From Lentisphaerae bacterium ADurb.BinA184 (GTDB taxonomy: Bacteria > Verrucomicrobiota > Lentisphaeria > Oligosphaerales > MVZH01): a stretch of 34,100 nt of DNA. The notes under the pieces were generated by a model. The model searched no databases. It was not told the DNA's origin and saw only the letters and a list, made by a program, of their open reading frames with translations. The position numbers and the translations under genes are program-made. Location: NCBI GenBank assembly GCA_002068325.1, contig MVZH01000018.1:1-34100 (forward strand), in the 5' to 3' direction. Shown piece by piece: positions 9,080-9,299 of the stretch (position 1 is the first letter of the stretch; the number at the start of each line of letters is the position of its first letter).

Positions 9080-9299
9080 TGAGCCGCTTGCAGAATTTCG
9101 GTATGAGTGGCCGGGACGAAGCTTGGGCCTCCAACGGCGTCGACAAGGACTGCTGTCGGTCGGGCTGGAGGGACGACCTCCGTGTCGTCCGGGTTCCGTT
9201 GCGGCAGACCAAATCCTCGGGTATGACCTGGCGGACACGGAGGTCCGCCCTCCATCGCACGAGGAAGTTGTTGTCCGCTGGGGTGCTGCAAGCGCCTCA
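9080..9299. mobile_element. 220-bp REP/BIME-like element, copy 1
   Basis: The ends form a terminal inverted repeat: left TGAGCCGCTTGCAGAA, right end reading TGAGGCGCTTGCAGCA on the other strand (14 of 16 equal). Inside are two perfect 7-bp hairpins with six-base loops, at 9171-9190 and 9230-9249, in opposite orientation. Each is preceded on its own strand by TGGAG. The architecture, head tag plus palindrome in inverted pairs, is that of REP/BIME elements moved by RAYT transposases, though no such gene is in the window. It aligns end to end with copy 2 with no net gap. It sits in the doxX-to-polyprenyl-synthase gap. Confidence 0.75.

Follow-up and report, generated by a model that had tools for sequence, protein, structure and literature searches.

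GGAG-headed hairpins in a Lentisphaerae MITE as candidate REP-like units of a RAYT system

We analysed a window of 34,100 nucleotides from Lentisphaerae bacterium ADurb.BinA184 (contig MVZH01000018.1), in which pairs of short hairpins recur. These hairpins are very probably REP-like single-stranded DNA units, recognised by RAYT proteins, that in this genome reside within a DDE-type MITE. In each unit the tetranucleotide GGAG stands at the base of a 7-bp stem closed by the loop CTCCGT. Its folded single strand would be recognised by a RAYT (TnpA-REP, an HUH/Y1 nuclease) of a subfamily found in Verrucomicrobiota, Lentisphaerota and related phyla.

The hairpins and the element that carries them

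The hairpins have the general form TGGAG + GG-N5 / CTCCGT / N'5-CC and lie in the window as follows.

9166..9190, + strand: left hairpin h1 of MITE copy 1; head TGGAG, stem GGACGAC/GTCGTCC, loop CTCCGT
9230..9254, - strand: right hairpin h2 of MITE copy 1; head TGGAG, stem GGCGGAC/GTCCGCC, loop CTCCGT
9109..9133, - strand: third hairpin h3 of MITE copy 1; TGGAG-GCCCAAG-CTTCGT-CCCGGCC, degenerate in this copy
12850..12874, + strand: h1 of MITE copy 2, identical to h1 of copy 1
12914..12938, - strand: h2 of MITE copy 2, identical to h2 of copy 1

The first-pass annotation had described two hairpins with a common loop whose stems differ at two adjacent base pairs, and this description is accurate. 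Both stems and the CTCCGT loop are exact at both sites with seven of seven pairs kept, the differences between h1 and h2 are confined to pair 3 (A-T/C-G) and pair 4 (C-G/G-C), and copy 2 carries the same hairpin pair, as had been stated. To that description we add the constant 5' head TGGAG, the degenerate h3, a 218-nt element with inverted ends and a third copy. The h1–h2 doublet of the window folds as a whole with −29.3 kcal/mol (z −5.3). The h3 of copy 1 folds poorly; the consensus of this hairpin among copies is GGCCGGG-CTCCGT-CCCGGCC. A free-stem pattern, TGGAGGGN5CTCCGTN5CC, has 277 matches in this genome against none for the reversed pattern, and hence the hairpins are not chance occurrences.

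The surrounding element was delimited by alignment of 70 copies, by its terminal inverted repeats and by target-duplication statistics.

9081..9298, + strand: MITE copy 1, 218 nt, with three hairpins
9081..9098, + strand: left terminal inverted repeat of copy 1, GAGCCGCTTGCAGAATTT; consensus GAGGCGCTTGCAGAACCC
9281..9298, - strand: right terminal inverted repeat of copy 1, GAGGCGCTTGCAGCACCC as read on the - strand
12765..12982, + strand: MITE copy 2, 218 nt; flanks AATG/AATA
1..83, - strand: third copy of the MITE, truncated by the contig end, with its terminal repeat at 66-83 and h3 at 31-55

Copies end in GAGGCGCTTGCAGAACCC in inverted orientation. An exact 4-nt target duplication flanks 29 of the 70 copies, where 0.3 are expected and shifted registers give 0–2; in copy 1 the duplication is inexact (CCCT/ACTT). 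With terminal inverted repeats of 18 nt and a target duplication of fixed length (4 nt), the element is a DDE-type MITE. Allowing up to three mismatches, the terminal repeat matches 265 times genome-wide against 16 in the control, and we therefore put the copy number in this genome at about 125. Elements of 218, 250 and 134 nt occur, together with a 99-nt form holding one hairpin. A search with the whole element returned 40 good copies among 227 first-look candidates in this 4.76-Mb MAG, which is 82% complete and whose assembly breaks at these repeats. Among the terminal-repeat sites examined, which are part of all such sites, no autonomous or longer element with the MITE's ends was found.

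Two elements elsewhere in the genome depart from this plan. A 250-nt class copy on contig C55 (locus L183) has a right-hairpin loop about 32 nt longer, making a longer hairpin. At another locus (L192, C255:2600-5785, around 1293-1525) the same terminal repeats enclose an interior of quite another kind, which contains a short tandem repeat built around GAACGC. Sequence similar to the third copy of the window was found at L193.

Outside MITE ends, the hairpins of this genome also form pairs, tandem runs and alternating arrays, and they are therefore independent units. The arrays include hairpins on both strands. Two hairpins in inverted orientation together with alternating arrays are the arrangement of REPINs and BIMEs.

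The hairpins vary little among copies. The first-pass annotation had proposed that alignment of many copies should reveal covariation at pairs 3 and 4, but none is seen: these positions are nearly invariant in 52 aligned copies, with one broken pair and one G-T pair in h1 and no change in h2. Covariation is lacking because the A-T/C-G difference is an old one, fixed between two hairpin types in the ancestor. We compared conservation along the element in 42 copies picked by terminal repeat and not by hairpin, drawn from all the terminal-repeat sites of one listing, a set that needs an exact terminal repeat and a near-complete alignment and may favour well-kept copies. Deviation from consensus is 1.6% in h1 and 2.0% in h2, against 10–25% in the spacers and 15% in h3, and pairs are broken in 35 of 292 cells of h3 but only 14 of 588 of h1 and h2. 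Hence two hairpins are maintained while the third is decaying. Divergence of the spacers showed no trend with decay of the target duplication, our measure of age, so that spacer diversity mostly predates insertion. From the decay of the target duplication we estimate a per-site change since insertion of roughly 6–13%, compared with about 1–3% in the hairpins, a contrast that imperfect duplication and partly hairpin-based selection of copies could mimic; it is only suggestive of maintenance after insertion.

Stem covariation across genomes

Fixed differences between h1 and h2, to which the copies in this genome have added no compensatory change at pairs 3 and 4, are what would be seen if the founder hairpins of one MITE family had differed by chance and then been copied, with no constraint on folding. 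Common descent of this sort is scarcely credible as a full account because it is contradicted by data from other genomes, where dozens of unrelated stems in distant lineages carry the same head and loop. A search of 198 genomes of the class used the pattern GGAGGG-N5-CTCCGT-N5-CC, in which pairing was not required. Matches number 280 in this genome (G000), 70 in G120, 39 in G066, 32 in G136, 31 in G122, 29 in G121 and 13 in G063. Among the matches listed in these other six genomes and in G061 and G064, with G000 left out, 105 of 118 are paired at the five free positions, Watson-Crick and G-T both counting as paired. Isolated matches in other genomes were fully paired in none of 12 cases.

All five free pairs show changes on both arms across 45 distinct hairpins. 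Paired cells make up 96.2% of this set, against 67.3% in shuffles and 31–58% with slid partners, and the covariation score is 0.775, against 0.203 for shuffles and 0.08–0.20 for slid partners. A sample of the phylum gave matches in 64 of 388 genomes, the reversed pattern totalling 2. Among the matches listed outside this genome, 121 of 150 (81%) are fully Watson-Crick, representing 29 stems in 28 genomes, and the left stem of the window, ACGAC, was found again in eight of those genomes. With 29–31 fully paired stems per sample, the hairpins share with REPs a palindromic stem of variable sequence.

Selection on a folded single strand, which the first-pass annotation had read from the window's two hairpins, is thus upheld by the cross-genome covariation of the five free pairs; comparison of copies at pairs 3 and 4, where it had looked for support, is uninformative, whereas comparison between genomes is informative. 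There is strong support for selection, or another fold-dependent process, acting on a folded single strand.

Paired changes could also be added without any selection on pairing. Template switching (quasi-palindrome correction), a known mutational process, copies one arm of a hairpin onto the other and would yield paired changes at any pair of the stem. The constancy of the head and loop has no explanation in this process, which leaves both untouched although they are conserved as well as the stem. Nor does it account for the decay of h3 beside the better-kept h1 and h2 in the same element, or for the association with RAYT genes described below, and we regard it as a very unlikely source of the pattern.

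RAYT genes flanked by the hairpins

Among the Y1 transposase genes of hairpin-rich genomes we found a small divergent RAYT with hairpins on both sides in G120, G061 and G066. With an alignment of 13 such RAYTs as the query, 80 relatives were retrieved from named genomes on protein similarity only; they come mainly from Verrucomicrobia, Lentisphaerae, Kiritimatiellae and Planctomycetota. Under a strict rule (GGAG-headed hairpin, stem of at least 7 bp, within 450 nt of the gene), hairpins lie near 54 of the 80 RAYT genes and on both sides of 43, compared with five loci in a distal control. At the feet of hairpins lying no more than 450 nt from a RAYT, no 4-mer is more enriched than GGAG (56 of 80 loci, distal control 5), and any base may precede it. 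The other 26 RAYTs fall outside the strict rule, but at least three of them (L224, L259 and L265) show a GGAG hairpin with a shorter stem call.

Pairing is retained at these loci, with 163 of 190 free-stem matches in 600-nt RAYT flanks fully paired. The window's own stem, GGACGAC-CTCCGT, flanks RAYTs in L246, L248, L251, L252, L253 and L283, and two different stems face each other, like the pair of the window, at L218, L223, L248 and L283. A feature of REP/RAYT systems in the broad sense, a RAYT gene flanked by its hairpins, is found in other genomes. As to the identity of the proteins, two of three tested scored above the cut-off of NCBIfam NF047646 (REP-associated tyrosine transposase), and the sole PDB match of the subfamily is 4ER8, E. 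coli TnpA-REP (E 2e-12).

TnpA-REP binds a single-stranded hairpin with a tetranucleotide at its foot (PMC6006769). This binding mode predicts a fixed head, a loop fixed within one branch and a stem that is free provided it pairs. By analogy, the RAYTs would bind and cleave the GGAG hairpin, the head and loop would be what the protein reads, and pairing, more than stem sequence, appears to be what is required of the stem. In the E. coli protein the guide is recognised by W94, Q95, E100, H101 and R104 (PMC6006769), which lie in WQ....WEHAIR of our alignment with 4ER8. The present subfamily mostly has WD[TR]QLR where E. coli has WEHAIR, a change that may go with the GGAG head.

In this genome's 82%-complete assembly we found no RAYT belonging to the cognate subfamily; it gave weak matches only, and the gene may be missing from it; recognition is therefore argued from other genomes. 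The hairpins here would be processed by a RAYT absent from the assembly. Two RAYT-like genes were rejected as the cognate. That on contig C9 belongs to a different subfamily and has a hairpin pair on its upstream side only, about 450 nt away, with none on its other side; that on C366 was rejected likewise. The latter locus (L306, C366:1-3295) contains an open frame of 320 aa in which a RAYT-like domain occurs together with repeated peptides, among them TAGVPPA and TAGGTPAVPAVAEDL; the peptides are encoded by a further repeat family of the genome. Other RAYT genes, in two Lentisphaeria genomes (L136 and L138), are accompanied by a different hairpin repeat, GGAA-CGCCACT-CTCCGC-AGTGGCG, of which several in-frame insertions lie inside the transposase ORFs and next to them.

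Covariation does not separate DNA from RNA, and it is the association with RAYT genes that favours single-stranded DNA. If the hairpins acted as RNA, selection would fall on a transcript shared with neighbouring genes, where they might affect mRNA stability, termination or attenuation or present a CCUCC (anti-Shine-Dalgarno-like) loop. In other bacteria, transcription of REPs is common and a function as RNA has been proposed for them (PMC3733652), and copy 2 sits between convergent genes. However, the hairpins match no Rfam family, they specifically flank RAYT genes and their arrays hold both strands. RNA wobble predicts an excess of G-T over A-C among single deviating pairs, yet the counts are 5 and 12 in this genome and 4 and 4 in the phylum sample; G-T is the commoner in the distinct class matches, so that wobble bias is inconsistent between samples as evidence for RNA. 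We consider a role as RNA unlikely and retain recognition of single-stranded DNA by RAYT as the preferred reading.

Relation to known REP and MITE families

The system resembles REP/RAYT, REPtrons and REPINs of E. coli, Pseudomonas and Stenotrophomonas (PMC2817692, PMC3116915, PMC3686654) in its short, high-copy hairpin with a fixed foot tetranucleotide, its inverted pairs of two stem types and its hairpin-flanked RAYT gene homologous to TnpA-REP (4ER8). It differs in that the head GGAG (context NTGGAG) replaces GTAG/GTGG, one large branch retains the loop CTYYGT across phyla, WD[TR]QLR takes the place of the E. coli WEHAIR, and the hairpins are embedded in a MITE in this genome. Because the foot is not the GT(A/G)G of canonical REPs, the system, although it works like REP/RAYT, is better classed as a variant outside the canonical REP families. 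Heads described for REPs are GTRG, CGTC and CnGA (PMC3686654, PMC3733652, PMC6006769), and we found no description of GGAG-headed REPs in the REP/RAYT literature searched. What is established of REP biochemistry may not hold for the GGAG head. Self-pairing of GGAG with the CTCC of the loop is left as speculation, since the loop is different in those hairpins beside RAYTs whose stem is 8 bp long.

Hairpins without a GTRG foot also flank RAYT-like genes of class 3 and subclass 2.6 of TnpA-Y1 (PMC6006769). Class 3 differs in its foot, CnGA, and its motif Y..EQ, and subclass 2.6 in its occurrence in Bacteroidetes and its NH[LIV]H, whereas the present subfamily has DH[IV]H with Y..NP. REPs have also been reported in Verrucomicrobia, as GTAG-tagged repeats of Opitutus terrae, one family of which is mostly GTGG (PMC3733652); this could overlap GTGGAG if it is the same family. 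As a MITE, the element is like NEMIS/Correia, RUP, ERIC and Nezha in being non-coding, of 100–250 nt and high copy number, with terminal inverted repeats and a target duplication. Unlike them, it has an interior made up of REP-like hairpins, one to three in number, and the conservation of two of these far exceeds that of the remaining interior.

In this genome two or three units have entered the MITE, which has multiplied to about 125 copies. Its movement would be due to a putative DDE transposase, to which the ends and target duplication point. More tentatively, and with the odds against it, the whole may be a composite whose movement depends on two machines of unrelated kinds, in which interior REPs were kept after insertion by RAYT or host selection and a RAYT branch switched its guide from GTRG to GGAG with the change to WD[TR]QLR.

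REP hairpins carried in a DDE transposon would have a route of spread without a RAYT of their own. The hairpins also amount to a large natural data set on what RAYT reads, with dozens of stems, a fixed head and loop, and paired proteins, where the solved relative is the E. coli protein only, with guide GTAG. The GGAG head and the conserved protein motif make the guide-recognition code directly testable.

Another short repeat occurs in the window. The 15-nt near-palindrome TTGCGGACTCCGCAA is present at 2011-2025, 16291-16305, 20106-20120 and 28250-28264, and a fifth site, at 19742-19756, has two mismatches. Nine strand-hits were counted in 34 kb against 0.08 expected, and the sequence is possibly a regulator site or a further short repeat.
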